From Daejeonella sp. JGW-45 (GTDB lineage Bacteria; Bacteroidota; Bacteroidia; Sphingobacteriales; Sphingobacteriaceae), in contig NZ_JARKNC010000010.1 in NCBI RefSeq assembly GCF_029360805.1, positions 361,287 through 425,286 of the forward strand: DNA of 64,000 nucleotides. Reading direction: 5' to 3'. Both the position numbers and the translations under genes were made by a program. Under the pieces are notes generated by a model that had not been told where the DNA came from, did no database searches, and saw only the letters and a program-made list of their open reading frames with translations. Numbering within the stretch: position 1 is the stretch's first letter; each line of letters starts with the position of its first letter. Positions 996 to 60,993 of the stretch are shown one piece after another.

Positions 996-1030
996 AGGAT
1001 ATGAGAAATGAGATGTGAGAGATGAGATAT
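996..1030. repeat. Degenerate heptad array (five 7-bp units, GAGATAT type)
   Basis: Five consecutive 7-bp units, such as GAGAAAT, GAGATGT and GAGATAT, keep exact phase between the Wzi-like stop and the promoter of the Wza-like gene. It belongs to the window-wide set of 7-bp-period patches described in the findings. Confidence 0.75.
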
Positions 1031-1072
1031 GTTGTACTTATATGATGAAGATTAGCCTCTGCTTGCATTCCA

Positions 1073-2734
1073 CTAAAACCCGTATGAGACTCCGATCCTG
1101 AATTCATTGGCGACTGCTTTCGGCTGAAGCGCCGGGCGGATTATGCCTGCTTGTTTCAGGTAAGATCCGGCTACCCGCAGCTGGTTGATAATTTCATATT
1201 TGACCTCGACAAGCATTTGCTTTTGGGTAGTTACACCGCCGTCGAGGAATGCGGGCTGGGGTTCGGCATAATATTGGTCTTCCAGGCTTCCGTCTTTGCC
1301 TTTCCGTGTGTAATTAAGCTGTATGCCTGTGCTTAAACGCGGTGCGGGATTGTAACGTATCCAGGCAGTCAGCCGGTCGGCGTTCTGGCCTATCCAGTCG
1401 CCAAGCGTATAGGTTTGATTTGTATAATTCTGTGCCGGGATCAGGTTCTGGTAAACAAAAGGATTTAGCCGGGTATATTCCAGTCCGAGGGTCAGGTAGG
1501 GGACGAAAACATCCGTAACCGATGCACCGAGGTTAAACCCGACCTGGTTGCGGCTCTTCGCCTTGTTAAAGACCTCCGACAAACGGATCTCGTCGATAAA
1601 AAGACTGCCATAAAGATGCGTGCGCGGAATATGGTTGCGTGAGCTTGCCTGTAAAAAGAACTGCCCGTTGGACCCGGAGTTTATTTTATACCTGCTGGCA
1701 TACTGGTCGTACGCTTTGAAGAACATAACGGGAATAAGATAACCTACATCCAGTTCGTCGCTGTAGATCATTGATTCACCTATGCTCAGTGCCAGGCCCT
1801 TAACGGGAAAGAAATTAAAGCTGTGGGTGGCCATGAACTTCGGGATATAAATTTCGCGCTGATCGCCATATATGGTATTGCCTTTCGGATAAGTTGCAGC
1901 GGAGTCGATAATTGCGGACTGCAGCCAGGAATGTGCATAATGAAAGCGGAACCACTTTAAAGGCTGGTAGTCGAGGCGTATAAAGGGGTAAGCAGGGGAC
2001 TTATCGGAGAGAATGATCCGGCCATTTTCACCATATCCCAATAGCAGCTGGTCATTGCCGAGGGTTACTGCTCCATTCCCCCAGTTATAGGCCACACTTC
2101 CCCTGAGGTCAGTATAATTAAGCGTTTTGGCATTTGCTTTTACGTTGGCTGTTCTTACGATCCCTGTCTCGTTACTGAACTGGCGTATTGTATCTATCCC
2201 GCTTCCTGACTCAGTGATATCGGAAAAGGATGCCTGGAAAGAGAATCGTTTCCCTACATGGCCCCAGAACCTGATGCCCGCCCTATTTTTCAGTATGCTC
2301 TTGTCTTTGCCCTGGATGGTTTCAAGACCGATAATTGGGTCACCCCTGACCAGGAAATCGGGATTGTCCACAGCCAGGAACCTCAGGCGCCCGGACTGGT
2401 CTTTTTTCAGAAAGGTGGTAGAGTCAACTAACTGCCCGTTAAACTCGGCGTATTCTTTCAGGTAAAACTGAAGTTCCTTTTGCTCGGTCACAGACAGCCG
2501 GTGAAGGGAGTCGTTCAGGATAGTAAGGTCCCGGGCTATTTCCTTGCGGCTTAGCGGAAGGATAAAATCGGTGATCTCAATATTGCCCTTTTGAGCCTGC
2601 CTGCTTAAAAATTGGTGAATTGAGTTCTTCGGATCTTCCCACACCACCTGGGCCTGGGATGCGGAGCTTAAAAGTTGAAATAGTCCGGTACAAACGCAAA
2701 GTATAAGTAGTTTACAGTTGTTCTTAATAAGCAT
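1073..2734 (-). CDS. Capsule assembly protein of the Wzi family
   Basis: 553 residues with a signal peptide (residues 1-28, ending ASQAQ). The rest is rich in alternating aromatic/polar beta-strands, consistent with an outer-membrane barrel, and the protein ends in an aromatic residue (IGVSYGF), as barrels do. The pattern (RGDPIIGLETIQG, RAGIRFWGHVGKRFSFQASFSD, GRIILSDKSPAYPFIRLDYQP) is that of Wzi/CapA-like capsule assembly proteins. In enterobacteria Wzi is a lectin-like barrel that anchors capsule to the surface; anchoring the polymer made by this cluster is the inferred role. Its start overlaps the end of the upstream phosphotransferase gene by 11 bases, so the two are co-transcribed. Confidence 0.85.
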   Translation of the reverse strand: MLIKNNCKLLILCVCTGLFQLLSSASQAQVVWEDPKNSIHQFLSRQAQKGNIEITDFILPLSRKEIARDLTILNDSLHRLSVTEQKELQFYLKEYAEFNGQLVDSTTFLKKDQSGRLRFLAVDNPDFLVRGDPIIGLETIQGKDKSILKNRAGIRFWGHVGKRFSFQASFSDITESGSGIDTIRQFSNETGIVRTANVKANAKTLNYTDLRGSVAYNWGNGAVTLGNDQLLLGYGENGRIILSDKSPAYPFIRLDYQPLKWFRFHYAHSWLQSAIIDSAATYPKGNTIYGDQREIYIPKFMATHSFNFFPVKGLALSIGESMIYSDELDVGYLIPVMFFKAYDQYASRYKINSGSNGQFFLQASSRNHIPRTHLYGSLFIDEIRLSEVFNKAKSRNQVGFNLGASVTDVFVPYLTLGLEYTRLNPFVYQNLIPAQNYTNQTYTLGDWIGQNADRLTAWIRYNPAPRLSTGIQLNYTRKGKDGSLEDQYYAEPQPAFLDGGVTTQKQMLVEVKYEIINQLRVAGSYLKQAGIIRPALQPKAVANEFRIGVSYGF

Positions 2735-4130
2735 TCGGATTTCCTTTGATAATATTAATAACTGTTTGAAGGATTATCTGGCAATCCAGGCGAAATGTCC
2801 AGTTATGTATATAATATAGATCATGATTGACTCGTTTCTGCATGTCGTTCGCGGTGAGCGTTTCGCCCCGGGCGCCGTTAACCTGTGCCCAGCCTGTAAT
2901 TCCCGGCTTGACAAGGTGGCGCAGCATATACCGGTCCACCTTATGCATGGAGGAAAGATTCAGGGGCGTCACGTGCGGCCTTGGCCCTACAACCGACATA
3001 TTTCCCAGTAATACGTTCCAGAACTGCGGTGTTTCGTCGAAATTCCATTTTCTGAGAAATTTGCCGATCGGTGTAACCCGTGTATCGTTTGGAGATGCTT
3101 GTATAAATTTACCATTAGTGTCTGTTTCAGGACTGTCGTGGTACATGCTTCTGAACTTATAGCAAACGATAAGCTTATTGTTAAGGCCCCAGCGTTCCTG
3201 TTTAAAGAAAACAGGGCCTTTGGAGCTCATCTTGATAAGCAGCGCAATAAGCGGGAACAGCCACCAGCCTGCTAAAAGAAAAAAGCATGCCGAAAATATA
3301 ATATCGAAGCCCCGCTTAATGATCTTGTTCGCTTCACGGTCCTGGGGAAGCGAACGCAGGTTGATAACCGGCAGCATGCCAATATTATTGATCTGGATAT
3401 TACTGGAGGCATAGGTATACAGATCGGGAATGATACGTACCCTTCGCCCGTACAGGTCGCAGGCTTCCATACATAGCCGCAGCTCCTGGTGCTTTGAATT
3501 AGGAAGGGCAATAATTACCTCGTCTACTGTATTCTCTTCCAGCACCTTATTAATGTCGTTTATTTCACCAAGGTAAGGGCAGCCATTCAGCTTGGTTACC
3601 TCGTTATCAAGGAAGCCAATACATTTATAACCGTAGTAGAAGTGGATATTGATCGTATCATAGAAATCCTTCGCGGCCTGTGTTGCCCCGATGAGCAGGA
3701 TATTATCATTCAGCCTGCCGGTATATAGTATCTTGTGAAGGTGTTTCCTTAATATATACTTGTTAAAAATGACAAGCGAAGTCAGAACGGTAAAATACAG
3801 CAGCAGGAACTTATCCCTGATATAAAGCTGCTCCCTTAACATGAAGAGAAAGAAGCTTAAAAGGATGACGAACAGGAAAACGGTGAACAGGATATAAATG
3901 ATCTCTTCCGAGAACTTCTTGGACCTGAGATCGGCATATACACCTGAAAATTGCGCTGCGATATACCAGGCAACCACGGAGAACAGGAAAACGATCGAAA
4001 TGAAGGGCCTGCCGGGATAGATGAATTCCGGTTGGGGAAAATAATGATAGGCGATGTAGAGCGCGGCCAGGATGACGGGTACCTCGATCAGGCAGCGGAC
4101 TACCCTGTATTTTAAATGTCTCTGATTCAT
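2724..4130 (-). CDS. Undecaprenyl-phosphate sugar phosphotransferase (WcaJ/exopolysaccharide initiating enzyme)
   Basis: 468 residues. Four N-terminal membrane segments (about residues 10-30, 43-62, 77-103, 108-127), a CoA-binding/Rossmann-like middle domain (ILLIGATQAAKDFYDTI, FLDNEV), a fifth membrane segment after KRGFDIIFS (about 272-297), and a C-terminal bacterial sugar transferase domain with FFKQERWG, YKFRSM and VVGPRPH. These are the marks of polyisoprenyl-phosphate hexose-1-phosphate transferases, which load the first sugar onto the lipid carrier at the inner membrane. The gene overlaps its neighbours on both sides (4 bases upstream, 11 downstream), so this is a tight operon. Sugar specificity (glucose or galactose) cannot be read from the sequence. 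Confidence 0.92.
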   Translation of the reverse strand: MNQRHLKYRVVRCLIEVPVILAALYIAYHYFPQPEFIYPGRPFISIVFLFSVVAWYIAAQFSGVYADLRSKKFSEEIIYILFTVFLFVILLSFFLFMLREQLYIRDKFLLLYFTVLTSLVIFNKYILRKHLHKILYTGRLNDNILLIGATQAAKDFYDTINIHFYYGYKCIGFLDNEVTKLNGCPYLGEINDINKVLEENTVDEVIIALPNSKHQELRLCMEACDLYGRRVRIIPDLYTYASSNIQINNIGMLPVINLRSLPQDREANKIIKRGFDIIFSACFFLLAGWWLFPLIALLIKMSSKGPVFFKQERWGLNNKLIVCYKFRSMYHDSPETDTNGKFIQASPNDTRVTPIGKFLRKWNFDETPQFWNVLLGNMSVVGPRPHVTPLNLSSMHKVDRYMLRHLVKPGITGWAQVNGARGETLTANDMQKRVNHDLYYIHNWTFRLDCQIILQTVINIIKGNPNAY

Positions 4131-8702: not shown

Positions 8703-8730
8703 AGGGAGTAAGGAGCAAAGAACAAGGACC
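8703..8730. repeat. Degenerate heptad array, AAGGAGC type
   Basis: Four in-phase 7-bp units of the type AAGGAGC. The 26 bp at 8710-8735 are 25/26 identical to 47423-47448, just after sprA. Confidence 0.7.
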
Positions 8731-8761
8731 TGACCGCAAATGCTTTCCCTTACATATATCG

Positions 8762-8852
8762 TTTCCCATTTCCCATTTCCCATTTCCCATTTCCCACTTT
8801 TCGCTTCCCGCCTCTCGTTTCTCGCATCTCGTTTCTCGCATCTCGTCTCCCT
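8762..8852. repeat. Long heptad array (13 in-phase units, TTTCCCA then TTTCTCG type)
   Basis: Thirteen 7-bp units in unbroken phase: five identical TTTCCCA units, then units such as CTTCCCG, TTTCTCG and CATCTCG. The array runs into the stop codon of the acyltransferase gene (stop at 8851-8853) and, with the array at 8703, makes up most of the gap to asnB. Confidence 0.85.
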
Positions 8853-9546
8853 ATTTCCTACTCTTTATCACTTTTGCCGGAACCCCACCCACAATACTAT
8901 AGGGCGGAACATCCTTAGTTACCACGCTTCCCGCAGCGATCACTGATCCTCGTCCTATAGTTACGCCGGCGAGGATTATTGTATTAGCTGCGATCCAGCA
9001 GTCGTCTTCTATCTTAACGAACTCTCTTTTGACACCCTGTTCCTTGATGCTGAGGTTGGGATCGTCAAACAAATGATTCTCTGCATAAATACTTACCCTG
9101 GGAGACATCATTACATTGTCGCCAATTTCTATATATCCCGAGCATCCAATATATGAATAAGGGCCGATGCTGGAGTTGTTCCCTATTTTCAGGCCCTCGC
9201 CGATCGCCGACCCGTAAATATTTGTAGGCCTTATTATGGCATGTTTTCCTATGGTTACGCGGTCGCCCACAACGATGCCGCGGTAGGTCATGCAGTTTAC
9301 CTCGGCGTAGTCTTCGACGATAAAATCCCTGCCGGCGCTCAGATGCCGGGCGTAACGGATGGATGCGCCTTTGCCGACCAGTACCCAGCCGCTGGATCTT
9401 TTAAAGAATAACCGCTGAAACATACCGCGCAGGTAAAAGAAAGAAAGGCGGTAAAGTGTTGCCAGGATGTCCCGGCTTTTCCATTCACCGGGAAAGCGGT
9501 CAACGATAAATTTATAACTGTGTAAAAAGGAAGTGTCAGACCTCAT
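8851..9546 (-). CDS. Acyltransferase with left-handed beta-helix (hexapeptide repeats)
   Basis: 231 residues. After an N-terminal helix-rich stretch, from about residue 70 there are repeated [LIV]-G-x4 hexapeptides ([54 protein letters not shown]) and the end VGGVPAKVI, typical of the maltose/galactoside O-acetyltransferase group. It probably O-acetylates a sugar of the polymer. Start ATG 9546 follows a TAGTTTTG -7 element at 9556-9563 by only about ten bases, so the transcript would be nearly leaderless. Confidence 0.85.
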
Positions 9547-15157: not shown

Positions 15158-17086
15158 TCAGGATGCTATAGTTTTGGTTGCCCGGGGTACAGCTAGTTTT
15201 TCCACAGCTTTAGCTATCCCCTTTGCATCGTACCCGCATTCAGCCCATAGCTCGGGCTGTTCGCCATGTTCAATTATCTTATCGGGGATCCCAAGCCGGG
15301 TGACATTACAGGCGTAATTATTATCGGCCATAAATTCGAGTACGGCGCTTCCCATTCCGCCCTGGATGCAGCCATCCTCGACAGTTATCACATATTTGAA
15401 CTTTCTAAACACCTGGTGGAGAACCGCCTCGTCCAGAGGTTTGGCAAAACGCATATCATAATGTGCCGGATGGATACCTTCGGCATTCAATTCCATGCAT
15501 GCTTTAACAGCTTCGTTTCCAATGTGCCCGATACTTAAAATGGCCACGTCTTCACCATCGCAGATCATCCGGGCTTTTCCGACTTCAATTGCTTTCATGG
15601 GCCGGCGCCAATCGGTCATGACACCATTCCCCCGCGGATAGCGGATACTGAAAGGGCCCATATTCTCCTGCTGGGCAGTGAACATCAGGTTCCTGAGCTC
15701 CTCTTCATTCATCGGCGCTGAGACGATCATGTTTGGAATACAGCGCATGTAGGCAAGGTCGTAAGCTCCATGATGAGTGGCGCCATCTGACCCGGCGAAG
15801 CCTGCGCGGTCAAGGCAGAAAACTACGTTCAGCTTCTGAATAGCAACATCGTGTATAACCTGATCATAAGCCCTCTGCATAAAGGTGGAGTAGATATTGC
15901 AAAAAGGTATCATGCCCTGTGTGGCAAGGCCCGCGGAGAAGGTAACCGCATGCTGCTCGGCAATTCCGACGTCAAACGCACGGTCGGGCATTGCTTTCAT
16001 CATAATATTTAAAGAAGATCCCGAGGGCATTGCCGGGGTAACTCCCATGATCTTCGAATTTTGCTCTGCAAGCTCGACAATGGTGTTCCCGAAGACGTCC
16101 TGGTATTTCGGCGCCAGGGGCTTGTCGGTAACAGTTTTCTTTATTTCGCCGGTAATTTTATCAAAAAGGCCTGGTGAGTGCCATTTTGTTTGATCTTTTT
16201 CGGCCAGCGCATATCCTTTGCCTTTAACGGTAACGCAATGCAGCAGCTTCGGGCCGGGAATATCCTTCAGGTCGTTGAGTACCTTCACCAGGTGTTTCAC
16301 ATCATGGCCGTCGATAGGTCCGAAATACCTGAACTTCAAAGCTTCGAAGAAATTACTGCGTTTCAGCAACCCGCCTTTGATGGTCTTCTCAACCTTCTTA
16401 ATTATTTCATGGGCGTTAGGGCCAAGCTCGGAGATCTTGCTTAATACATGGGAGATATCATCCCGGAAACGGTTATAAGGTTTGGAGGTTGTAATGTCTG
16501 TGAGGTATTCTTTTAAGGCGCCTACATTGGGGTCTATCGACATGCAGTTATCATTCAGGATGACCAGGATGTTGGAGTTTTCAATTCCGGCATGGTTCAG
16601 AGCTTCGAAGGCCATTCCTCCTGTCATCGCCCCGTCGCCGATAACTGCGACGTGCTGGCGGTCTTTTTCTCCCTTATAATTAGAGGCTACGGCCATACCT
16701 AATGCTGCAGAGATCGAGGTCGATGAGTGGCCTACGCCAAACGTATCATATTCACTTTCAGCCCTTTTTGGAAATCCGCTGATGCCTTTGTAGATCCGGT
16801 TGGTATGAAAGGAATGTCTTCTTCCGGTGAGTATCTTATGGCCGTAAGCCTGGTGGCCCACATCCCATACCAGCTGGTCGTAGGGCGCATTAAGTACATA
16901 GTGAAGGGCGACGGTGAGCTCTACCACGCCGAGGCTTGATCCAAAGTGACCTCCGTTAACGGAAACAGTATCAACAATGAATTGTCTCAGTTCATCACAG
17001 ATCTGAACCAGATCGGTGTCTTTGAATTGTTTCAGATCAGCAGGATAGTTTATCTGCTCCAGAAATTCGCCCGCCTTAACTTCCAT
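15158..17086 (-). CDS. dxs: 1-deoxy-D-xylulose-5-phosphate synthase
   Basis: Condenses pyruvate and glyceraldehyde 3-phosphate with thiamine diphosphate to DXP, the first step of the MEP isoprenoid pathway; cytosolic homodimer. 642 residues from ATG 17086 (MEVKAGEFLEQI), close to the family's usual 620-650. Seen: VWDVGHQAYGHKILTGRR, the TPP-binding motif VIGDGAMTGGMAFEALNHAG..LNDN, FRYFGPIDGHDVKHL, the pyrimidine domain with GIAEQHAVTFSAGLA and RAGFAGSDGATHHGAYDLAY, and a C-terminal transketolase domain. An in-frame ATG at 17110 is less likely because the -7 element TATTTTTG ends two bases before it (17112-17119). Monocistronic in appearance. Confidence 0.97.
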   Translation of the reverse strand: MEVKAGEFLEQINYPADLKQFKDTDLVQICDELRQFIVDTVSVNGGHFGSSLGVVELTVALHYVLNAPYDQLVWDVGHQAYGHKILTGRRHSFHTNRIYKGISGFPKRAESEYDTFGVGHSSTSISAALGMAVASNYKGEKDRQHVAVIGDGAMTGGMAFEALNHAGIENSNILVILNDNCMSIDPNVGALKEYLTDITTSKPYNRFRDDISHVLSKISELGPNAHEIIKKVEKTIKGGLLKRSNFFEALKFRYFGPIDGHDVKHLVKVLNDLKDIPGPKLLHCVTVKGKGYALAEKDQTKWHSPGLFDKITGEIKKTVTDKPLAPKYQDVFGNTIVELAEQNSKIMGVTPAMPSGSSLNIMMKAMPDRAFDVGIAEQHAVTFSAGLATQGMIPFCNIYSTFMQRAYDQVIHDVAIQKLNVVFCLDRAGFAGSDGATHHGAYDLAYMRCIPNMIVSAPMNEEELRNLMFTAQQENMGPFSIRYPRGNGVMTDWRRPMKAIEVGKARMICDGEDVAILSIGHIGNEAVKACMELNAEGIHPAHYDMRFAKPLDEAVLHQVFRKFKYVITVEDGCIQGGMGSAVLEFMADNNYACNVTRLGIPDKIIEHGEQPELWAECGYDAKGIAKAVEKLAVPRATKTIAS

Positions 17087-17111
17087 GTAGGGTTTGTGAT
17101 AAATGATCATG

Positions 17112-17119: not shown

Positions 17120-17190
17120 ACTTATTTATGAAACTTTTGGTTAATGATTTACGAAATTGAGGTTTGAAGTCGAGGTCGGGGGCGGACGTC

Positions 17191-17239
17191 AGAGGTCGGA
17201 GATCAGAGGTCGGATGTCTGAAGTCGGAGATCAGAAGTC
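17191..17239. repeat. Degenerate heptad array (seven units, AGAGGTC/GGAGATC type)
   Basis: Seven in-phase 7-bp units alternating AGAGGTC, GGAGATC, GGATGTC and TGAAGTC, with less regular units upstream (17165-17190). It lies in the divergent gap between dxs and scpA, directly before the inverted-repeat element. Confidence 0.75.
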
Positions 17240-17253
17240 GTGGGTATGAGCTG

Positions 17254-17519: not shown

Positions 17520-18278
17520 ATGTTATCAACCGACAATTTCGAAATCCGCCTTCCGCAGTTTGAAGGCCCCTTCGACCTGCTTTTATTTTTCATCGAGCGG
17601 GATGAGCTCGACATACAGGATGTTCCTATAGCCAGGATAACGGATGATTTCCTGGATTATCTCCATCATTTGAATTCCCTGAACATAGAAGTTGCCAGTG
17701 AGTTTATTTTTGTAGCGGCCACCCTGATGCGGATCAAGGCTAAGATGCTTTTGCCGCGGCCCGACCTTGATGAAGAGGGGAACGAGGTTGATCTTAAACG
17801 GGACCTCATCCGGAAACTGATCGAGTACAAGAAGATAAAAGAAGTAACGGAAGAGTTCAAGTTACTTGAACACGAGCGCTTTCAGTTGGAGAAGCGGGGC
17901 AATATCAGTTTCGATATGCAACAGATCGCTCTTACGTCGGAGCCCGGGGAAGAACTTGAGTCGTTCGATCTGTATAAATTAATGATGACCTATGCCAGGG
18001 TCATTAAAAGGAGTCAGCAGCGCGACGATAAACAGGAACATATTGTTGAGAAGTATCCTTATAATATAGAAGATCAGAAGACTGTGATCCGGCAGCTTCT
18101 TGAAATAAATAAAAGGCTGGACTTTAAGGGTTTGTTATCGACCTCCGATAATAAGGTCCATTTTGTTTACAATTTCCTGGCCTTGCTTGAGATGCTTCAG
18201 CAGGACCTGGTCACTATTCAGACCGGCCTTGGATTTAATAATTTTTGGATTGAAAGTAAAGTGCTGAGGGAAGCTTAA
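17520..18278 (+). CDS. scpA: Segregation and condensation protein A
   Basis: Kleisin subunit that bridges the SMC heads in the SMC-ScpAB condensin, needed for chromosome compaction and segregation. 252 residues, typical length. The N-terminal SMC-neck binding helix region contains FEIRLPQFEGPFDLLLFFIERDELDIQDVPIARITDDFLDYL and AATLMRIKAKMLLPRP, the family hallmark; the C-terminal winged-helix contains VHFVYNFLALLEMLQQDL. scpB is not in the window. The stop codon lies in the first unit of a 24-bp tandem repeat (18271-18336). Confidence 0.95.
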   Translation: MLSTDNFEIRLPQFEGPFDLLLFFIERDELDIQDVPIARITDDFLDYLHHLNSLNIEVASEFIFVAATLMRIKAKMLLPRPDLDEEGNEVDLKRDLIRKLIEYKKIKEVTEEFKLLEHERFQLEKRGNISFDMQQIALTSEPGEELESFDLYKLMMTYARVIKRSQQRDDKQEHIVEKYPYNIEDQKTVIRQLLEINKRLDFKGLLSTSDNKVHFVYNFLALLEMLQQDLVTIQTGLGFNNFWIESKVLREA

Positions 18279-18336
18279 ACGCAGAATGTTGAAGGAAGCT
18301 TAAACGCAGAGTGCGAAGGAAACTTAAACGCAGAGG
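18271..18336. repeat. About 24-bp tandem repeat (three units) overlapping the scpA stop
   Basis: Three units with core AAGCTTAAACGCAGA start at 18271, 18296 and 18320 (third AAACTTAAACGCAGA). The first unit contains the scpA stop codon TAA (18276-18278); the third merges into the GCAAAG-type element. Confidence 0.75.
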
Positions 18337-27871: not shown

Positions 27872-29413
27872 TTGTCAGCACTTAAGAAATTTGCAGGCCA
27901 GACGGCTATCTATGGTATAAGCACCGTTATTTCCAGGTTTCTCGGATTCATCTTAACGCCTTTTTATATCCGGATCTATTCTGCCAAGGTGTACGGGATT
28001 TTTACGGTTATGTTCAGCTGGGCATCGATGCTCAACGCTGTCCTTTCCTTTGGGATGGAAACCACGTTCTTCAGGTATCTCAGTAAATATGAGAACGACA
28101 AGCAAAAGGTATACGACAATACCTTTCTGACGATCTTTGCATTATCTGCTGTATTTCTGACCTTCTCTAGTCTTTTTGCAGGTGATATTGCAGCATGGAT
28201 GCAGGAGGGCAAAAGATATAATGAAAATTATGCCACTTATATCCGGTACTTTACCTGGATCATCGTTGCCGATGCGCTCGCTGTTATTCCTTTCGCCAAA
28301 CTGCGTGCTGACGGCAAGCCTATCCGCTACAGCGTTATCAAATTCGCCAATATTTTAATGTTCATCGGCCTTAATTTCTTTTTCATACTTGTAGTTCCCG
28401 CGATCATTACAAACCAGCTGCCCGGCGAAAGCCTGGTTTCAGGGTGGTACCGTGAAAATTGGGTCGGTTATGTCTTTTTTTCTAACCTTATAGCCAGCCT
28501 GTTAACGCTGGTCTTGCTAATTCCTGAGCTGTTGCAGGTGAGGCTTAAATATGACGGAAAGCTTTTAAAGGAAATGTTCTATTACAGCCTTCCCGTTCTC
28601 GTTGCCAACATGTCTTTTATAATTAACGAAAATTTAGATAAGGTGTTTCTTGGAAAGCTGCTGCCGCCGGATATTTCAGAAACCCATGTTGGTATTTACG
28701 GCGCCTGCGCGAAATTAGCCGTCTTCCTGAGCATTTTCATCCAGGCATTTCGATTAGGCGCCGAACCCTTCTTCTTCAGTTATTCGAAAAATAAAAATTC
28801 GGGTGAAACTTATGCCCGGATAATGAACTATTTTGTGATTGCCGTCTGCCTGATCTTTGTGATGCTGGTAGCCAATATCGAGCTCCTTAAGCATTTTATC
28901 AAGGCAGGCGACGATATCCAGCGGACACTTTACTGGTCCGGTTTAAAAGTTGTGCCTGTTTTACTGTTTGGCTATGTCAGCCTGGGGATTTACGTTAATT
29001 TATCCATTTGGTATAAATTATCAGATCAGACACGCTATGGATTATATATTTCCGGGATCGGGGCATTACTAACCATTGTACTGAATCTTATTTTCATTCC
29101 TGAATACAGTTATATGGCTTCTGCATGGATCTCATTAACTGTGTATAGCATTATGATGGTGTTTTCTTATGTCTGGGGGCAAAAGAATTATCCGATACCG
29201 TATAATCTGAAAAAGAATATCTCCTATCTTCTTGCTTCCGCTGCTATCGTATTTGTATCATTTGTAGTATTTAACCGTAATTTGATCATTGGAAATACCC
29301 TGTTTATTATATTTACGTTAGTAACTCTTTATATAGAACGCAAAGAAATAATCGCCTTGCTTGGATCCCAAAGCTCAAAGCCCCAAGCCCAAAGCCCCGA
29401 CGATGAACATTAA
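27872..29413 (+). CDS. Oligosaccharide flippase family protein (Wzx/MOP superfamily)
   Basis: 513 residues with about 12-14 membrane helices, e.g. [26 protein letters not shown] at the start and [20 protein letters not shown] in the second half. Start TTG 27872; no ATG is near and the coding frame is clear from the start. Members flip lipid-linked saccharides across the inner membrane. It is the only flippase seen, yet it lies 13 kb from the polysaccharide locus, so it may serve that locus or another glycan. The last ~15 residues ([15 protein letters not shown]) are encoded by a 7-bp repeat array (29368-29395), and the end overlaps dut by 11 bases. Confidence 0.88.
29368..29395. repeat. Heptad array (CCAAAGC type) inside the flippase 3' end
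   Basis: Four in-phase 7-bp units (CCAAAGC, TCAAAGC, CCCAAGC, CCAAAGC) encode the polar tail of the flippase and end just before the dut start. Confidence 0.75.
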
Positions 29414-40344: not shown

Positions 40345-40366
40345 TTACTATCAATATCAAAGGAAA

Positions 40367-43300: not shown

Positions 43301-46300
43301 TTCATTGAAATGTGGATGCTCGATCCTTTTATTTACAATAGAACAAGTCCGGGCGGCGATATATACTTCAATCTCGGAAATATTACCGAAGACATCCTGA
43401 AAGATGGAAGGAAAAGTCTCGAGAACGGCTTGCCTATTGACGGCAATCCTGCAAAAACTGATGCAACAGCCTGGGGGCGTGTTCCCAAGCTCCAGCCGGT
43501 TATCCAGGCATTTGATAATAATCCGGATGCACGGGCTTTTCAGGATGTTGGGATCGATGGACTTGGAAGCTCTGACGAAAGGCAGCAGTTCGCGACATTT
43601 TTAAACCAGGCTAAAGCGTCATTGAGTCCTCAGGCTGGTATCGCACTCGAGGAAGATCCGGCATCAGATGATTATCAATATTACCGGGGTTCAAATCTTG
43701 ATCAGCAGAATGCCGGTATTCTGAAACGTTATGAGAGGTATAATAATCCTGAGGGCAATTCCAAAACCCCTCAGCAGTCGTTAGCTGAGACCGGTATTGA
43801 AAATTCTGCAGCGACTTCTTTACCTGATGGAGAGGATATTAACCGTGATAATAATTCAACCCAGGCAGATGAATACTATCAATATAAGGTTTCGATCCGT
43901 CCGCAGGATCTGGCAACTGTAGGATCTAACTACATTACAGATATAGTTCCTGCTACCGTAAAGCTTGTAAATGGCAGGACGGAAACTGTACGGTGGATAC
44001 AGTTTAAGATCCCGGTAAATGACTACATTCAGAAAGTAGGGAACATTGAGGATTTCAAATCGATTCGGTTTATACGGATGTTCATGACCGATTTCGCTGA
44101 TACAACTGTGATGCGGTTTGCCAAGCTGCAACTGGTGCGCGGGGAATGGAGAAGATACAATGCTGAGAATAATCCAGCCAAGGTGCTTGTTGACCCGGGG
44201 CTGATAAATCCAGGGCTTGACAATTCGTCAATTGATGTGTCAACGGTAAATATTGAAGAAAACGGGCGGCGTACTCCCATTCCATATGTGTTGCCACCGG
44301 GGATCAAACGTGAACAGGATATTACAAATTTTCGCGGGCAGTCGCAGCAAAACGAGCAATCGCTGGCACTGACTGTGAAGGATCTTCGTGACGGTTATGC
44401 CCGGGCTTCTTTCAGGACCGCGTACAATGATTTTCGCTCTTACAAAAGGATGGAAATGTTTATTCATGCAGAAGGGAATCAATTAAGGGATAATGATTTG
44501 AGTGCGTTTCTTAGAGTGGGAACGGACAACCAGGATAACTACTACGATTATAATATTCCACTTAAGATAACAAACCCCGGTTCGAGCGACCCCGCGGCTA
44601 TCTGGCCTGAACAGAATAAGCTTGACGTACAGCTGAGCTTGTTTCAGGCTGCAAAAACCGCACGGAATAATGCGATCTTTAATGGACAGCCCTGGCCAAT
44701 TAATCGCCCGTTCGTTTACCAGGATGGTGCAAATACCATTACGGTTAAAGGTCAGCCGGATTTAAGCAAGGTGAGGGTTTATATGCTAGGAGTAAGAAAC
44801 CCGCTTAGAAACCCGGCAAGCCCGGCCGGCGATGATGGCCTGGATAAATCGGCTCAGGTGTGGTTCAACGAACTTCGTCTGACTGATTTCGATGAGCGGG
44901 GCGGCTGGGCTGCGACGGCAAGGCTGAACGCCAAGTTAGCTGATTTTGCCGACATCACCGTCTCGGGAAGCAGGAGTACAATAGGCTTCGGGTCTATTGA
45001 CAAAAGGGTCAGTGAGCGTAATCGTGAGGATGATATATTATTTGACATTTCGGGAAGCATGGAACTTGGAAAGTTCTTCCCTGAACGGGCGGGGATTAAG
45101 GTCCCCATGTACGTTAATTTTTCATCCCAGATAGGTAGCCCGCAATATGACCCGCGTAACCAGGATACCGAGTTTAAAACGGTCTTAAAAAATTCACCGC
45201 GGGCAATAAGAGATTCGCTCAGGTTTATTACTGAAGATTACAGCTCCCGGAAAAGCATCAACTTCACGAATGTCCGCAAAGTTAAAACCAACCCGGAAAG
45301 CAAGGTTCATTTATGGGATATTGAAAATATCAGCGCAACGTACGCATTCAACGAGTTTAATCACCGGGATTATATTAATGAAAGTACGATCCAAAGGACT
45401 TATCGGGCCGGCCTCCAGTACAATTACGCAAAGCAAGCAAAATCGATAACACCTTTTGAAAAGCTTATTAAATCGAAAGCTCTTTCACTGGTGCGTGATT
45501 TTAACTTCACATTGCTGCCGTCTGTCATTAATTTTAACATAAATGTCGATCGGCTGTATTCTGAAAACACGCTGAGAGATAACGATCCGAATAATTTCCT
45601 GCCGATAAACACGAACTTCAATAAGAACTTTCAGATGTCGCGGCTTTATGGGATAAGCTGGAACTTAACGCGTTCCTTACAGCTGGACTTTAATGCGACT
45701 AATTTCTCTGTCATAGATGAGCCGGACGGACGGATAAATGGTTTGAAGCGCGATACCTTATGGCAGAACCTTAAGAAATTGGGGCGGACGACGGACTACG
45801 GACATACGATGAACCTGACTTACAACGTACCGATAAATAAAATTCCGGGACTCGATTTCATCACTCTCGGTACGCAGTACCAGGCAGGTTTTAACTGGCA
45901 GACTGAACCGTTGATAACTCTGCGGGATCCATTGATTAACGTCGGAAACACGATCCAGAATTCACGGGCGGTTAAAGTTAACCCGGCACTTAACCTGATA
46001 CAGTTATATAATAAGTTTGGTTTTGTGCGTAGTGCATCGCAAGAGGCAAAAGGGGCGGGGCGATTCTTTGTTAATTTGCTGACCAGTGTAAAGACTGTTG
46101 GAGCGGCTTATTCAAGGACTCAGGGTACTTTCCTTCCGGGTTACCTTCCGTCAACAGACTTTATCGGTCAGGACCTGGATGCCAAAGCTCCCGGTTATGA
46201 TTTTCTGCTCGGAAGCCAAAGGGACATCCGCGGGCGGGCTCTCAGCAACGGCTGGATCACGCGGGACTCATTGCTGAACCAATTGTATATTAATACTGAC

Positions 46301-47410
46301 CGCGAGGATATGAATTTCCGTGCAAGGGTTGAACCTTTTCCGGAGATGATCATTGACCTTACGGCCTTGAAGAGTCAGAACTTCAATTACTCAACTAATT
46401 TTAAATACCTCCCTTCTTCGGGTAATTTTGAAAATCTTAGCCCGGTTACAACCGGGGATTACCTGATTTCATATATTTCATTGAGGACTGCTTTTAAAAA
46501 GGAGAACGGGAATAATAATTCCTCAAGCCTTTTTGAACGGTTTGAAGAAAACCGTGCAATTATTTCGAGGCGCCTGGGGGCTAATAATCCAAATTCTGCA
46601 GGAACAAGCGGCGGTTTTGCCGATGGATACAATAAGAGTTCACAGGATGTTCTGATCGCTTCTTTCATTGCAGCTTATACCGGGAAGGATGCCAGCAAGA
46701 TATCGTTAAACCGGTTCCCTAAGATCCCTATCCCTAACTGGAGGGTAAATTATAATGGCCTGAGTAAGTTCAGTTTTTTCAATGATATATTTACTTCGAT
46801 CTCCCTTAATCATGGGTACCGGTCATCATACGCAGTTAATGGATTCAATTCGCTTGTGCGGTACCAGGAAGCTAACGGAGCGGTAAATATCAGGGACGCC
46901 AATAATAACTTTCTCCCGTTCTACCAGTTCTCGCAGGTAACGATGTTCGAGCAGTTTCAGCCGCTTCTGGGCGTGGATGTCAGGCTGAAGAATAACCTGA
47001 CAATCAATATGGAGTACCGTAAATCACGTGAACTCAGATTCAGCCTTTCGAACAGCCAGCTGGGGCAGCAAAAACAAGATAATGCCGTATTTGGTTTAGG
47101 GTACCGAACAAATCAGTTCCGCTTCCCATTCGGATTATTCAAGGGGCTCAAAATGGATAATGATATGTCGTTCAAGCTTGATTTTGCTCTGAGTGATACC
47201 AAGACGGTGATCTATAGGGCAGATGTTGTAGACGCAGAGGTTTCTTCAGGCGCTAAAGACATTACCATACGGCCTAATATCGATTACGTGCTCGATCAGC
47301 GGTTCACGCTTCGTTTATTCTACAATGGTAAGATCACAAAGCCTTACACATCGCAAACATTTAATACTTCATTTAATGATTTTGGAGTGAATTTGAGGTT
47401 TACGTTGTAA
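40367..47410 (+). CDS. sprA: Gliding motility / type IX secretion outer-membrane protein SprA (Sov)
   Basis: Giant outer-membrane beta-barrel that forms the type IX secretion translocon in gliding and non-gliding Bacteroidota. About 2347 residues. No ATG exists near the start: TTG 40367 gives a clean signal peptide (KSVAFYISGICFFFLVLLGSHAIAQ), whereas TTG 40325 would add 14 residues and overlap ruvA. Family features seen: DLTLSGRFNRNENPLFNERQRSQGNFDFEQRIQMN and IGEKLRITTNYNTEAQFDFENQVKLDYTG near the N-terminus, a central part with GASYLDDFEASRSLIDIKS, and many aromatic beta-strands through to the C-terminal GVNLRFTL, a barrel end. No T9SS cargo with a C-terminal sorting domain was seen in the window. 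Confidence 0.95.
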   Translation: MKSVAFYISGICFFFLVLLGSHAIAQNPAAGKDTSKLTYPFEDSKYIQLKRTPGITLPNPSNIRRSVEFDPVSKRYIIREKIGDRFYRTPQYLSIEEYQKYENELIKKNYWKELADLPLAEAREPGFIPPVKINSKSFEKIFGGSTIDIRPQGSADLTLSGRFNRNENPLFNERQRSQGNFDFEQRIQMNVVGQIGEKLRITTNYNTEAQFDFENQVKLDYTGKDDEIIRKIEAGNVSLPLSSTLISGSQALFGLKTQLQFGRLNVTTVFSQQKSQQREITITNGSQQNEFSISADNYEPNKHYFLAQYFRNNYNRALENIPVINSNVNITKIEVWITNRSNSTVNSRDVLGLIDLGENNVYNRAQIQGGAGFSALPAGFNGPGFTQQSNNLLQVLPPGARLTNSNDANAFFQANGATDNFAKLTFARSLTDKEYTLNPRLGYISLNTSLNADEVLAVAFRYTLNGVEYQVGEFSTDVAVNNTTPEVLFVKLLKNETLKTSLPTWDLMMKNIYSLGAYQVSRTDFRLNIFRLGEDTGVETPQITEGQNTNGKLWLQLTNLDNLNQQNDRRPDGFFDFIEGITIDPQNGRITFPLIEPFGSDLARRFDPIAERNLIDKYVYQPLYDSTKVLAQQLFQRLNRYQIRGTYQSQSSSEFQLNAINIPQGSVQVVAGTLPLQEGVDFTVDYNGGMVRILNQALLNSGQPIRIKMENNELFGLQQRSLTGSRFDYRVNDKLNLGGTFMNLTEKPLTEKVNIGEESISNTIWGLDANYSSGSRWLTRMVDKIPFINTKEASSITFSGEYANLIPGHPRALNFAGSRNGASYLDDFEASRSLIDIKSAIAWQISGTPQMFPESRLNNDLSYGYNRARLAFYNIDPIFFVNGNSLTPDNIKKDKNELSNHYVRQVFEREVFPFKESPTGQAIILPTFDLAYYPRIRGPYNFSSTGLNPDGSLTNPRSRWGGIFRKLETNDFEALNIEFIEMWMLDPFIYNRTSPGGDIYFNLGNITEDILKDGRKSLENGLPIDGNPAKTDATAWGRVPKLQPVIQAFDNNPDARAFQDVGIDGLGSSDERQQFATFLNQAKASLSPQAGIALEEDPASDDYQYYRGSNLDQQNAGILKRYERYNNPEGNSKTPQQSLAETGIENSAATSLPDGEDINRDNNSTQADEYYQYKVSIRPQDLATVGSNYITDIVPATVKLVNGRTETVRWIQFKIPVNDYIQKVGNIEDFKSIRFIRMFMTDFADTTVMRFAKLQLVRGEWRRYNAENNPAKVLVDPGLINPGLDNSSIDVSTVNIEENGRRTPIPYVLPPGIKREQDITNFRGQSQQNEQSLALTVKDLRDGYARASFRTAYNDFRSYKRMEMFIHAEGNQLRDNDLSAFLRVGTDNQDNYYDYNIPLKITNPGSSDPAAIWPEQNKLDVQLSLFQAAKTARNNAIFNGQPWPINRPFVYQDGANTITVKGQPDLSKVRVYMLGVRNPLRNPASPAGDDGLDKSAQVWFNELRLTDFDERGGWAATARLNAKLADFADITVSGSRSTIGFGSIDKRVSERNREDDILFDISGSMELGKFFPERAGIKVPMYVNFSSQIGSPQYDPRNQDTEFKTVLKNSPRAIRDSLRFITEDYSSRKSINFTNVRKVKTNPESKVHLWDIENISATYAFNEFNHRDYINESTIQRTYRAGLQYNYAKQAKSITPFEKLIKSKALSLVRDFNFTLLPSVINFNINVDRLYSENTLRDNDPNNFLPINTNFNKNFQMSRLYGISWNLTRSLQLDFNATNFSVIDEPDGRINGLKRDTLWQNLKKLGRTTDYGHTMNLTYNVPINKIPGLDFITLGTQYQAGFNWQTEPLITLRDPLINVGNTIQNSRAVKVNPALNLIQLYNKFGFVRSASQEAKGAGRFFVNLLTSVKTVGAAYSRTQGTFLPGYLPSTDFIGQDLDAKAPGYDFLLGSQRDIRGRALSNGWITRDSLLNQLYINTDREDMNFRARVEPFPEMIIDLTALKSQNFNYSTNFKYLPSSGNFENLSPVTTGDYLISYISLRTAFKKENGNNNSSSLFERFEENRAIISRRLGANNPNSAGTSGGFADGYNKSSQDVLIASFIAAYTGKDASKISLNRFPKIPIPNWRVNYNGLSKFSFFNDIFTSISLNHGYRSSYAVNGFNSLVRYQEANGAVNIRDANNNFLPFYQFSQVTMFEQFQPLLGVDVRLKNNLTINMEYRKSRELRFSLSNSQLGQQKQDNAVFGLGYRTNQFRFPFGLFKGLKMDNDMSFKLDFALSDTKTVIYRADVVDAEVSSGAKDITIRPNIDYVLDQRFTLRLFYNGKITKPYTSQTFNTSFNDFGVNLRFTL

Positions 47411-47531
47411 GGAATAAGGAGCAAGGAGCAAAGAACAAGGATCTGACCCCGGGGATATTGATTAAAGTACCCCACTCCTGGTGAACAGCGATATATCTTT
47501 ATTCTTTGCTCCTTGTTCCTTAATCCTCCTT
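47409..47531. repeat. Inverted pair of heptad arrays after sprA (possible terminator)
   Basis: Left arm 47409-47443 has five in-phase 7-bp units of AAGGAGC type, starting inside the sprA stop codon; right arm 47494-47531 has complementary units (GCTCCTT, GTTCCTT). Together they can fold into a long imperfect hairpin. 47423-47448 is 25/26 identical to 8710-8735. Confidence 0.75.
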
Positions 47532-47560
47532 GCAAGTCTGCCGTACTTAAGCTACTTTTG
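47530..47560 (+). promoter_or_regulatory. Probable promoter of gcvH
   Basis: TTG (47530-47532), 20-base spacer, TACTTTTG (47553-47560), 22 bases before the gcvH ATG. Both halves match the Bacteroidota consensus; the -33 box lies at the edge of the heptad array. Confidence 0.65.
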
Positions 47561-47581
47561 AAATATTTAAAACCAGACAAA

Positions 47582-47962
47582 ATGAATTTTCCAGAAGAAT
47601 TGAAATATACAAGTGATCACGAATGGATCCGGGTTGAAGGCAACGTTGCTTATGTCGGCATCACAGACTTTGCTCAGCACGAGCTGGGCGACATTGTTTA
47701 TATCGAAATAGACACCCTTGGTAAAGAGGTGGCGCAGGAAAGTCAGTTCGGTACTGTAGAAGCTGTAAAAACGGTTTCAGATCTGCTGATGCCCGTTTCA
47801 GGCAAGATTTCGGAATTAAACAAAAAGCTCGATGCAAATCCGGAGCTGGTGAACAATGATCCTTATGGAGACGGCTGGATGGTAAAAATCGAGATCTCAG
47901 ACGAGTCCCAGCTTAGTAAGCTATTATCGGCTTCAGAATATAAGAACCTGGTAGGCGCCTAG
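47582..47962 (+). CDS. gcvH: Glycine cleavage system H protein
   Basis: Lipoyl carrier that shuttles the aminomethyl group between P, T and L proteins of glycine cleavage. 126 residues from ATG 47582 ([20 protein letters not shown]), normal length. The lipoylated lysine is Lys63 in [19 protein letters not shown]. The longer frame upstream is in repeat sequence and is not used. No gcvT or gcvP in the window. The VanZ-like gene starts two bases after the stop. Confidence 0.96.
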
Positions 47963-52329: not shown

Positions 52330-54309
52330 TTAATATTTGAGGAGACTGTCGACCTGCGCGTGCAACCTGGATTTAGCAAGAAAATTATCTTCGAGCGCTT
52401 TGTTCATTGGTATTGCTGTGTCAAGACTCGCGCAGCGTTTTATTGGGGCGTCCAGAAATTCAAAACAATGTTCGGCGATATGGGCGCTTATTTCGCCGCC
52501 GAATCCGCTTGTTAAAGTATCTTCGTGTAAGATGAGAACTCTCCCGGTCTTTTTCACGGAATTTTCTACAGATTCCTTATCCCAGGGTTGCAAGGTTCTG
52601 AGGTCTATGAGATCGGCCGATATCTGAGGATGCGCATTCAAGTATTCAAGTGCCCAATGAACTCCAAGGCCATAGGTGACTATGCTTATTTGCCCGCCCG
52701 TGCGTACAAGTCTTGCTTTTCCGATCCCGCAGGTGTAGTAATCATCGTGAACAGGTTCAGCAATGGCGCGGTAAAGATATTTGTGCTCAAAATAGATGAC
52801 CGGGTTAGGATCGTCGATCGCTGCTGCTAAAAGTCCTTTAGCATCGGATGGAAAGGCGGGATATACGATCTTAAGCCCCGGGGTTTTAGTGAACCAGGCT
52901 TCGTTGCTTTGAGAGTGAAAGGGCCCCGCACCAGTCCCTGCGCCTGTGGGCATACGGATCACAACATCGGCCTTCTCCGCCCACCGGTAATGTGTCTTCG
53001 CCAGGTTATTTATGATCTGGTTAAACCCGCAGGTTACAAAATCTGCAAACTGCATCTCTACAATTGCTTTATACCCATTGATCGATAAACCCAGCGCTGT
53101 ACCTACGATGGCTGATTCGCAGATTGGCGTGTTGCGTACCCTGCCTTTACCGAATTCTTCCACAAAACCCTGCGTAATTTTGAATGCGCCACCATATTCG
53201 GCGATATCCTGGCCCATTATAACAAGCTTTGGATATTTCTGCATGGATTGTCTTAACCCATCGGTAATGGCGTCTATATAACGCCTCTCGCTTTTTAAAG
53301 AGCTTACAACCTCCACCGGCTCCGCCGTAGAAGGAGCATACATATCTCCGACTTCGATAGCGGTGTTCACGGGGACTTCATCGTCGGCAAATGCCAGCTC
53401 AATTTCAGCCTCGATCTCGATTTTAAATTCATCCCTTATTTCAGCAATCAGTTCTTCATTCAGGATCTTCTCGTCGCGCAGGTACTGTTCGAAATTGTTA
53501 AGCGGGTCTTTCTTCTCCCATTCGGTAAAGAGCTCCTGCCGGATATATTTAGTGCCCGAAGCTTCTTCGTGCCCGCGCATACGAAAGGTCATACACTCGA
53601 CCAATACCGGCCGAGGTTTTTGCCTGATATTTTCGGCAATATCACTGATCGTATTGTAAACTTCCAGGATATTATTTCCGTCTATCTGGTAACCTTCCAT
53701 ACCGTATCCAATTGCCCGGTCGACAAGATTTTTACACCGGTATTGTTCGTTTACAGGAGTTGAGAGGCCGTAGGCATTATTTTCAATAATAAATATAACC
53801 GGGAGGTCCCAGACGGCGGCCACGTTAAGAGCTTCATGAAAATCACCCTCGCTGGTAGCGCCCTCACCTGTAAATACCAGTGTGGCATTTTGTTTATTTT
53901 CCAGGAGATCAGCTAAGGCAATGCCATCAGCTAAGGCAAGCTGCGGGCCCAAATGGGAGATCATCCCAACAATGTTAAACTGCTTTGTGCCAAAGTGAAA
54001 CGAGCGGTCACGGCCCTTGGTAAAACCGGAGCTCTTTCCCTGCCATTGAGCCATAAGCCGGGATAAAGGGATGCCCCGGCTGGTAAAGACGCCCAGGTTC
54101 CTGTGCATGGGGAGGATAAATTCATGAGGCCGCATGGCGAGGGTCGTGCCAACGGCAATAGCCTCCTGGCCGATGCCGGAAAACCATTTGCCAATCTTTC
54201 CCTGCCGTAAAAGGATCAGCATTTTTTCCTCTATCATCCTGGGTTTAAGGAGATGCTTATAGAACTTTAAGAGGCTGCTATCGGAAAGATCTTTACGGTC
54301 GAATTTCAT
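52330..54309 (-). CDS. 2-oxoacid dehydrogenase E1, fused alpha and beta subunits (branched-chain type)
   Basis: 659 residues. The alpha part (about 1-320) has the TPP motif FTGEGATSEGDFHEALNVAAVWDLPVIFIIENN and RGHEEASGTKYI; the beta part (about 330-659) has MGQDIAEYGGAFKITQGF, TPICESAIVGTALGLSINGYKAIVEMQFADF and a C-terminal transketolase fold. In most bacteria these are two chains; the fusion is common in Bacteroidota. It decarboxylates branched-chain 2-oxoacids (or pyruvate/acetoin-like substrates) and passes acyl groups to E2. No E2 or E3 gene is in the window, so the complex is split. Confidence 0.9.
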   Translation of the reverse strand: MKFDRKDLSDSSLLKFYKHLLKPRMIEEKMLILLRQGKIGKWFSGIGQEAIAVGTTLAMRPHEFILPMHRNLGVFTSRGIPLSRLMAQWQGKSSGFTKGRDRSFHFGTKQFNIVGMISHLGPQLALADGIALADLLENKQNATLVFTGEGATSEGDFHEALNVAAVWDLPVIFIIENNAYGLSTPVNEQYRCKNLVDRAIGYGMEGYQIDGNNILEVYNTISDIAENIRQKPRPVLVECMTFRMRGHEEASGTKYIRQELFTEWEKKDPLNNFEQYLRDEKILNEELIAEIRDEFKIEIEAEIELAFADDEVPVNTAIEVGDMYAPSTAEPVEVVSSLKSERRYIDAITDGLRQSMQKYPKLVIMGQDIAEYGGAFKITQGFVEEFGKGRVRNTPICESAIVGTALGLSINGYKAIVEMQFADFVTCGFNQIINNLAKTHYRWAEKADVVIRMPTGAGTGAGPFHSQSNEAWFTKTPGLKIVYPAFPSDAKGLLAAAIDDPNPVIYFEHKYLYRAIAEPVHDDYYTCGIGKARLVRTGGQISIVTYGLGVHWALEYLNAHPQISADLIDLRTLQPWDKESVENSVKKTGRVLILHEDTLTSGFGGEISAHIAEHCFEFLDAPIKRCASLDTAIPMNKALEDNFLAKSRLHAQVDSLLKY

Positions 54310-54316: not shown

Positions 54317-54344
54317 GTGAGCTACGGGCTATGAGATATGAGCC
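54317..54344. repeat. Short heptad array (ATGAGCT type) upstream of the E1 gene
   Basis: Four in-phase units (GTGAGCT, ACGGGCT, ATGAGAT, ATGAGCC) eight bases upstream of the E1 start. The unit resembles the array at 60917-60993. Confidence 0.6.
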
Positions 54345-54408
54345 TGAAGTATCTTTTTAAACAATATATTTTATTCAACTCTGATTACTGTTTACCGGCC
54401 ACCGATCA

Positions 54409-57876: not shown

Positions 57877-57880
57877 GAGA

Positions 57881-58808: not shown

Positions 58809-58840
58809 AATACCATTCTGTTTGACTTGAGAATGGTATT
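58809..58840 (-). terminator. Terminator after accC (T-tract overlapping a -7-like box of tatC)
   Basis: AATACCATTCT and AGAATGGTATT form a perfect 11-bp stem with a 10-base loop; the minus strand then reads TTTTTGTTTTTG. The same T-tract contains TATTTTTG (58805-58812), a -7-like match 11 bases before the tatC start. Confidence 0.7.
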
Positions 58841-58937
58841 CTGTTGATATTTAATAATAATCAATTTATTTGTGACATTTAAAGCAGTACACATATTGTA
58901 TTCGCTGCTTTTGACAGCCAATTAGTTTTAATTCAGG

Positions 58938-60278: not shown

Positions 60279-60345
60279 AGGTTTCTTTGTCGATATGAAT
60301 TTACTTCAAAAGCCGGGTACTTCTCATTTGTCTCTCGTTGCCCCG

Positions 60346-60366
60346 CTTCCCGTTTCTCGTCTCCTT
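60346..60366. repeat. Short heptad array between accC and accB
   Basis: Three in-phase units (CTTCCCG, TTTCTCG, TCTCCTT), the same unit types as the 8762-8852 array, ending at the accB stop codon (60365-60367); irregular related units extend back to 60320. Confidence 0.55.
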
Positions 60367-60850
60367 ACACTGGTTCAACCAAGAATAAAGGCTGATCGTA
60401 CTCAACCGGGCTGGCATTATCTACCAATACTTTCACGATACGGCCACTTACTTCAGATTCGATCTCATTGAAGAGCTTCATGGCTTCGATAATGCAAACA
60501 ACCTGTCCGGCCTTAATCTCATCGCCAACATTTACAAATAACGGTTTATCAGGGCCGGATGAACGGTAAAATGTACCGATCATGGGTGATTTAACAGTGA
60601 TGTAATTGGACGTTTCATCCTTATCTGCCGCTTTGGCTTCGGTTGCCGGCGCAGCCGGACTTGCCGGTGCGGCGGGGGGTACGACTGCTGAAATAGTGTG
60701 TTGCTGAACGGGGGCCGGTGCTCCTGTTATATAGGTTGGCGCCTGGTTAGTCTTTATGGTAATTTTAAACTCTTTCTGCTCAATTGACACTTCATTTACT
60801 CCAGATCTGGAAACGAACTTAATGAGTTCCTGAATTTGTTTAATATCCAT
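60365..60850 (-). CDS. accB: Acetyl-CoA carboxylase, biotin carboxyl carrier protein
   Basis: 161 residues. The N-terminal part (about 1-40) has the usual docking helix and strand ([20 protein letters not shown]), a Pro/Ala-rich linker follows (about 42-75), then the biotinyl domain (about 83-161) with the biotinylated lysine Lys125 in [13 protein letters not shown]. It carries the carboxylated biotin from AccC to the carboxyltransferase, which is not in the window. Part of the minus-strand lipid operon. Confidence 0.96.
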
Positions 60851-60916
60851 TGTTTATAGTTTAGTTTTCGGTTAATCTAAATTTATAATAAAATTTTAAG
60901 TTACGAACGATTATCT

Positions 60917-60993
60917 ATCAGTTATCGGCTATGAGCTATCAGCTATCAGCTGTCAGCTATGAGCTTTCAGTTATCAGCTTTCAGCTATTAGGT
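60917..60993. repeat. Long heptad array (11 in-phase units, ATCAGCT type) between accB and fabH
   Basis: Eleven 7-bp units in unbroken phase, variants of ATCAGCT (ATGAGCT, GTCAGCT, TTCAGCT, ATCGGCT). It occupies half of the 153-base gap between accB and fabH and stops ten bases before the fabH stop codon. Confidence 0.85.

Follow-up and report, generated by a model that had tools for sequence, protein, structure and literature searches.

What holds the spacing of a repeat constant when its letters change from one site to the next? The question is raised by a 64,000-nt stretch of Daejeonella sp. JGW-45, of the family Sphingobacteriaceae (contig NZ_JARKNC010000010.1, positions 361,287 to 425,286; C2:361287-425286 of the source genome, G000, which has 4,095,353 bp in 10 contigs), called the window below. 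A first-pass annotation of its letters had pointed out ten sites, mostly at gene junctions, at which degenerate arrays of differing units keep a 7-bp phase. The period is confirmed here as real and genome-wide, and many of the arrays are arms of imperfect hairpins, which that annotation had missed. The explanation that we favour, by a modest measure, is that the arrays change in 7-bp steps, with the geometry kept, the unit replaced and the two arms tending to change together, through slippage combined with co-evolution of the arms. Genes throughout are open reading frames (ORFs) called by a crude script rather than taken from an annotation, and the nearest relative used for comparison, G018, has a gene-letter identity of about 77% to the source genome.

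The 7-bp period, its units and its placement

Non-coding DNA of the window, taken as 27 stretches of 30 bp or more (5,705 bp) and set against 200 dinucleotide-preserving shuffles, gave z=5.2 (lag 7), 6.0 (lag 14), and 5.8 (lag 21), and no other lag from 2 to 30 exceeded 2.9; in the autocorrelation of coding DNA only the lag-3 rhythm was seen. Arrays passing an equal score were found in the window, among lags 4-15, only at lag 7 (n=6) and lag 14 (n=5). Beyond the window, 1.044 Mb of contiguous stretches of the source genome were examined, about a quarter of it and picked after the first pattern search, as well as 220 kb of G018; the null for intergenic DNA in both was 100 shuffles of dinucleotide blocks. 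The intergenic DNA of the source genome (106 kb) reached z=21.8, 14.0, and 13.2 at lags 7, 14, and 21 (best non-multiple of 7, 7.2), and that of G018 (25 kb) reached 18.9, 10.8, and 8.6 (best non-multiple, 3.6). Likewise, arrays with a score of at least 14 numbered 69 in the source genome and 36 in G018 at lag 7, whereas each of the remaining lags between 4 and 13 gave 0-3 and 0-1, respectively. The lag-7 excess that the first-pass annotation had proposed to look for is therefore clear in the window and in both genomes, and tandem 7-bp units outnumber those of other periods as in bacterial heptanucleotide simple sequence repeats (SSRs) and short tandemly repeated repetitive (STRR) sequences.

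The units were compared in 121 arrays with a score of at least 13 from both samples. Together they draw on 53 cyclic heptamers, whereas 109.5 result when the letters of each unit are shuffled. A single cyclic profile fits them with 4.47 bits; 20 permutations of position averaged 2.93 and did not exceed 3.04. AAAGTTG, AACGTAT, AACGTAC, AATCAGT, AAAACGT, ACCTGAT, and AGCTATC are frequent. In G018, AAGAATC, AAGTATC, and AAGAACC adjoin within single arrays, and such adjacent intermediates make it likely that units drift stepwise within a limited, connected set; a test of unit-network connectivity gave no separation of real from shuffled units. The earlier interpretation, that one period with varied units at gene ends reflects a common mechanism rather than one shared repeat, is thus partly supported: the period is constant and no single repeat is shared, but the units are not mutually independent. 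Its suggestion of template-directed addition or a period-measuring enzyme was not borne out; no enzyme that tracks the arrays was found. Plain polymerase slippage, in which chance seeds survive in dispensable DNA after stop codons and no structure is kept, agrees with the block-wise homogeneity of units within arrays. We regard it as unlikely, and chance seeds would not yield only 53 unit types.

With respect to genes, 78 of 87 arrays (score at least 12) are mostly non-coding, in line with the placement between genes or at gene ends first described; the array at 29368 lies in an overlap of ORFs. The contact with stop codons that had been noted by eye is also borne out statistically. On stop sides, 42/121 lay within 10 nt, where 18.8 were expected and the highest of 2,000 random placements was 34 (109 arrays with room for alternative placement entered this test). 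On start sides, the count was 7/97, with 12.1 expected. Arrays are depleted between divergent genes (12 of 121, whereas such gaps make up 134 of all 641; p between 0.004 and 0.018 depending on table layout), a point that plain slippage accommodates. The orientation of arrays relative to tandem genes had no clear bias (47 vs. 34).

Inverted arms and the era-der junction

A partner within 300 bp at a score of at least 16 was inverted for 52 of the 121 arrays, direct for 12, reversed for 3, and complementary for 8. Roughly four arrays in ten are paired in this inverted way, so that hairpin is often a better description than lone array. The 59 arrays with an inverted match of at least 14 form 40 distinct elements with spacers of 3-263 nt. 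In the 37 of these compared at equal arm lengths, the arms are 87% identical in register (the best-scoring register being chosen), 69-71% one unit off, and 21-29% out of phase. Plain slippage does not predict the imbalance of 52 inverted, 12 direct, and 3 reversed partners. In the 25 elements that are not of the ACGT type described below, the purine-richer arm is always the left one. A polarity common to all families was considered and rejected: a profile from all arrays placed 32 of 40 elements one way, and one from 61 solitary arrays split them 21 vs. 19.

The predicted RNA stems are very stable (median -39 kcal/mol, with no shuffle control, over those 36 elements of the 40 that span up to 180 nt), and this, together with the closeness to stop codons, is what would be expected of transcription terminators or of stabilizers of mRNA 3' ends, that is, of a selected RNA hairpin. 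At junction 26401, moreover, the source genome has an apparent standard terminator where G018 has a heptamer element. On the other hand, the T-rich tract of an intrinsic terminator follows only 4 of the 40 elements, standard terminators occur in 4/85 gaps with arrays and 35/356 without (no clear difference), and 4 of 40 elements lie between divergent genes. A role of this kind as the explanation is very unlikely in our judgment.

The junction between era and der, genes named here by their Pfam domains, was recovered from 18 of 19 genomes and allows the two arms to be followed while the unit changes. Depending on the species, the left-arm units are AARGARC, CAAGAGC, AGTATTT, or AAGTATC. A species' own two arms fit each other better than foreign arms do (13.1 vs. 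9.46), and none of 20,000 permutations was as high (p=5e-5, an optimistic value given the non-independence of related species). The controls, direct, reversed, and complement, gave 8.2-8.6. Grouped by unit classes set by eye for 13 of the 18 genomes, the fit was 15.4, 10.5, 14.1, and 17.2 within classes and 7.9-10.8 across them. Matched arms of this kind are not predicted by plain slippage.

According to the favoured explanation, slippage with arm co-evolution, the geometry that is kept would consist of the 7-bp period, two opposite-oriented arms of one unit, and a place beside the stop. Most probably, replication slippage in 7-nt steps would add units and homogenize them within an arm, and the match between the arms would be maintained in one of two ways: one arm is copied from the other by folding back during replication, or selection preserves a paired stem of RNA or DNA. 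Species that have a junction in common but differ in unit offer a direct handle on what fixes the 7-bp step and on how the arms remain matched during sequence turnover. Several results weigh against this explanation. An inverted match of 14 or more is missing for 62 of the 121 arrays, solitary arrays being what plain slippage would leave, and eight of the ten window sites listed below are solitary. The elements between divergent genes have no stop codon beside them. The order of units is barely matched between arms (0.874 vs. 0.846 with units shuffled; no element below p=0.14), which also speaks against recent copying of whole arms. At era-der, own arms score at least 13 in 9 of 18 genomes, 11-12 in three, and 4-9 in six, and therefore the hairpin is not universal there; the CAAGAGC class is weak, its 10.5 standing beside one off-diagonal value of 10.8.

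Sites in the window and turnover between relatives

The features of the window are as follows.

998..1031, plus strand: solitary GATATGA-type 7-bp array, listed by Tandem Repeats Finder (TRF); lag-7 p=0.0005; no inverted partner.
8703..8734, plus strand: weak AAGGAGC-type array at the junction of an asnB-like and a hexapeptide-transferase gene; lag-7 p=0.0015.
8762..8849, plus strand: TTTCCCA / TTTCTCG array at the stop of ORF 8851-9546(-); TRF; lag-7 p=0.0005; no inverted partner.
17180..17240, plus strand: GAAGTCG-type array, upstream of the ORF for DXP synthase, 15158-17110(-); TRF (14/28 bp); lag-7 p=0.0005; no inverted partner.
29367..29398, plus strand: AAAGCCC-type array; TRF; lag-7 p=0.0005; the two overlapping ORFs identified by Pfam.
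47408..47443, plus strand: left arm of AAGGAGC units, from the stop codon of sprA (ORF 40325-47410; SprA_N); inverted match to the right arm.
47494..47530, minus strand: right arm of reverse-complement AAGGAGC units, extending into the initial codons of ORF 47513-47962, called gcvH; inverted match.
54317..54346, plus strand: weak array of ATGAGCT units next to the start of ORF 52330-54309(-); lag-7 p=0.0015.
60346..60366, plus strand: claimed array, unsupported; lag-7 p=0.12; no TRF row.
60915..60997, plus strand: AGCTATC-type array between fabH and accB, 10-11 units long and immediately following the stop of fabH (61004, minus strand); TRF.

Each site was tested by its lag-7 identity against 2,000 letter shuffles. 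Nine of the ten sites that had been said to keep a 7-bp phase (996, 8703, 8762, 17191, 29368, 47409, 47494, 54317, and 60917) are singly supported at p<=0.0015, values that are optimistic because the sites were chosen by eye, and the tenth, 60346, is not. The arrays at 8703 and 54317 are weak and both are missing from the TRF list, which has period-7 rows at 998-1031, 8762-8796, 8797-8845, 29367-29397, 47416-47441, and 60915-60988, gives 17189-17240 as period 14/28, and adds two short rows of period 7 (45785 and 61535) absent from the first-pass annotation. The array at 998..1031 lies 42 bp past the stop of a Wzi-like ORF, 1073-2734(-), and at the threshold used none was found at the orthologous G018 junction. 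At 29367..29398, the overlap that holds the array is between ORF 27872-29413 (MatE/Polysacc_synt) and ORF 29361-29834 (dUTPase). The array at 8703 has AAAGAGC units on its matching side in G018, and that at 54317 has a G018 counterpart of the same type, stronger, at the equivalent place.

The sole inverted pair in the window is 47409/47494, at the sprA-gcvH junction, where the left arm matches the right with an inverted score of 25 (p=0.005, the floor of 200 shuffles). At this junction G018 has, as judged by eye, a hairpin of the AAGGAGC unit type with a 4-nt loop; inspection by eye revealed no such hairpin in the 15 remaining genomes that were recovered (2 of 19 were unrecovered, and the anchors overlapped in two). 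A phage search with the sprA gene gave no match, and no Rfam family reached its gathering score in the window or in seven array-bearing loci.

Across 64 junctions compared between the source genome and G018, a threshold count found arrays in neither genome at 49, in the source genome only at 5, in G018 only at 7, and in both at 3; this count misses weak arms, and by reading, arms or arrays are present in both genomes also at sprA-gcvH, era-der, and 54309. Among named records, the FabH of the window has its nearest match in Daejeonella sp. H1SJ63, at 92%. At fabH-accB, the gap is 153 bp in the source genome, where AGCTATC units follow the stop immediately, and 168 bp in G018, where an AGTTGAA/AACTGTC-type array occupies the equivalent place. 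In relatives of the same genus, 16 of 18 have a gap of about 66-83 bp with no array, and G005 has one of about 126 bp, also with no array. Similarly, the gap at the asnB-like junction measures 171 bp in the source genome and 508 bp in G018, against 34-59 bp in the 11 further genomes from which it was recovered. These two junctions are cases of gain, and arrays are both gained and lost between species. The same junction with and without an insert in different genomes would also suit dispersed non-autonomous inverted-repeat elements, similar to miniature inverted-repeat transposable elements (MITEs) or repetitive extragenic palindromic (REP) sequences, whose whole hairpins spread and whose heptamer arms then slip. 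As a general explanation this is quite unlikely, and a reading by eye of a few inserts revealed no target-site duplication. In a separate case, an array of the AGCTATC type occupies the start of a coding sequence in G018 (L181 16623-16667, G018:C3; orthologous to window 2690-2780), and the source genome lacks it; because the unit is 7 bp, it would read in all three frames.

The ACGT subfamily and heptamer arrays in other bacteria

The case for dispersal is best made by arrays of the ACGT type, which the MITE- or REP-like explanation fits better than it fits the other arrays. They are abundant in G000 (146+144), G018 (90+84), G003 (27+42), and G006 (10+10), with 0-6 in the other 15 genomes. In this family, the largest, all 15 paired GTTNTAC-type elements read GTTNTAC in the left arm, and neighbouring ACGT arrays in the sample form 23 convergent pairs and 1 divergent pair, a fixed orientation that plain slippage does not predict. 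The loop core AGCACAGCGTTTAG recurs with one arm polarity in the source genome, where it has 6 exact occurrences genome-wide. The subfamily thus looks like a spreading element. In contrast, the core occurs with three arm types and is found in 6 of the 40 loops, leaving 34 without it, and at era-der a hairpin fixed in place across species while its unit changes is not a case of insertion. A REP transposase was rejected as the mover, as Y1_Tnp genes do not track the arrays: there are 0 in array-rich G018 and the most (6) in G006, which has few ACGT arrays. The end of an integron attC site, which the loop core resembles, was likewise rejected, as the TIGR02249 integrase was above cut-off in 0 of 21 genomes, a set that did not include G018. 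At G000:C9:660015-660260 (L034 15-260), an ACGT-armed hairpin with the loop CTGGGCGGCTAGCACAGCGTTTAG is present in tandem copies of about 99 bp, with three loop cores. This loop and the loop CTGGGCGG(A/T)TAGCACAGCGTTTAG may resemble the 5' half of a tRNA.

The step itself may differ in other lineages. In 816 kb around fabH from 80 named Bacteroidota records, arrays of period 8 (n=19) were the most frequent, ahead of those of period 7 (n=5), 6 (n=4), and 9 (n=3), and Mucilaginibacter has inverted TGCANATN arms with a period of 8. Sphingobacterium mizutaii has nine period-7 arrays in 80 kb; no array of period 7 or 8 was found in 80 kb of Pedobacter polysacchareus, and none in 60 kb of G015. Counts for Mucilaginibacter L228-L232, G014, and G012 are not densities, because those stretches were chosen around known hits. 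It may be conjectured, tentatively, that the hairpin is inherited as a shape, its heptamers being steadily replaced and each arm templating the other in replication fold-back in steps of seven, so that the two would adopt a new unit jointly, with a unit set specific to the lineage and a step that differs in some, as in the inverted 8-bp arms of Mucilaginibacter; we think this rather doubtful. Separately, in the fabH-region loci L061-L140 (e.g., L107 6003-6207 and L118 6061-6773), period-8 arrays replace period 7 at the same operon junctions, and the period-8 units near fabH are TGCA-cored with inverted arms in Mucilaginibacter and TAATTAGC in Pedobacter.

The earlier statement that no equivalent had been described was too strong, as heptamer arrays are described in cyanobacteria, in Xanthomonas, and, for TAACTGA, in a few Bacteroidetes. 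Mrazek and colleagues, writing in 2007 on long simple sequence repeats, reportedly found a period-7 excess in bacterial repeats and proposed polymerase slippage. We know of no inverted-arm structure in heptanucleotide SSRs or cyanobacterial STRR sequences. REP and MITE palindromic repeats are likewise multicopy intergenic inverted repeats, but the Daejeonella arms are tandem heptamers with changing units.

In Xanthomonas, GGGAATC arrays are degenerate 7-bp repeats, intergenic, near the stop of the upstream ORF and rare between divergent ORFs, with 70 and 75 inverted pairs, convergent, in two species, and with length and sequence varying between relatives (Rehm et al., 2015; PMC4692102). The Daejeonella arrays were found to share the inverted pairs, the nearness to stops, and the non-divergent placement. 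In contrast, the Xanthomonas account concerns one G-rich unit, GGGANTN, read as forming a G-quadruplex, whereas here there are 53 unit types that change between relatives at one site, and a run of three G or C occurs in the consensus unit of 7 of the 121 arrays. TAACTGA direct repeats occur in Beggiatoaceae, cyanobacteria, and five Bacteroidetes as intergenic arrays of mixed heptamers, with 7-nt indels between close strains, and lie mostly before start codons in the main species (MacGregor, 2015; PMC4679880). The Daejeonella arrays are also intergenic heptamer arrays, but they lie near stops, and the TAACTGA unit is present in 0 of 121. Both reports cite a proposal of polymerase slippage for heptamer repeats (PMC4692102; PMC4679880). 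The apparent novelty is that there are many interchangeable units and that both arms replace them together; no literature on such hairpins in Sphingobacteriaceae or on joint change of units in two arms was found in a search whose coverage left out most subscription journals. If the favoured explanation is true, a wider rule of period and inverted arms would include, as special cases, both the G-quadruplex reading in Xanthomonas and the reading of TAACTGA as a regulatory site.

Three further repeats were noted. The longest array in the G018 sample is an AGGTATT/AGGTATC array of 124 bp with a score of 74.5 (L178, G018:C7:140001-160000, 1026-1149). On the same contig, at G018:C7:119377-119611, a block around GCGTTTAGAAAC occurs six times, with heptamer runs separating the copies. 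In the window, 18260-18335 is a 25-bp tandem repeat of 3.1 copies at the end of an scpA-like ORF.

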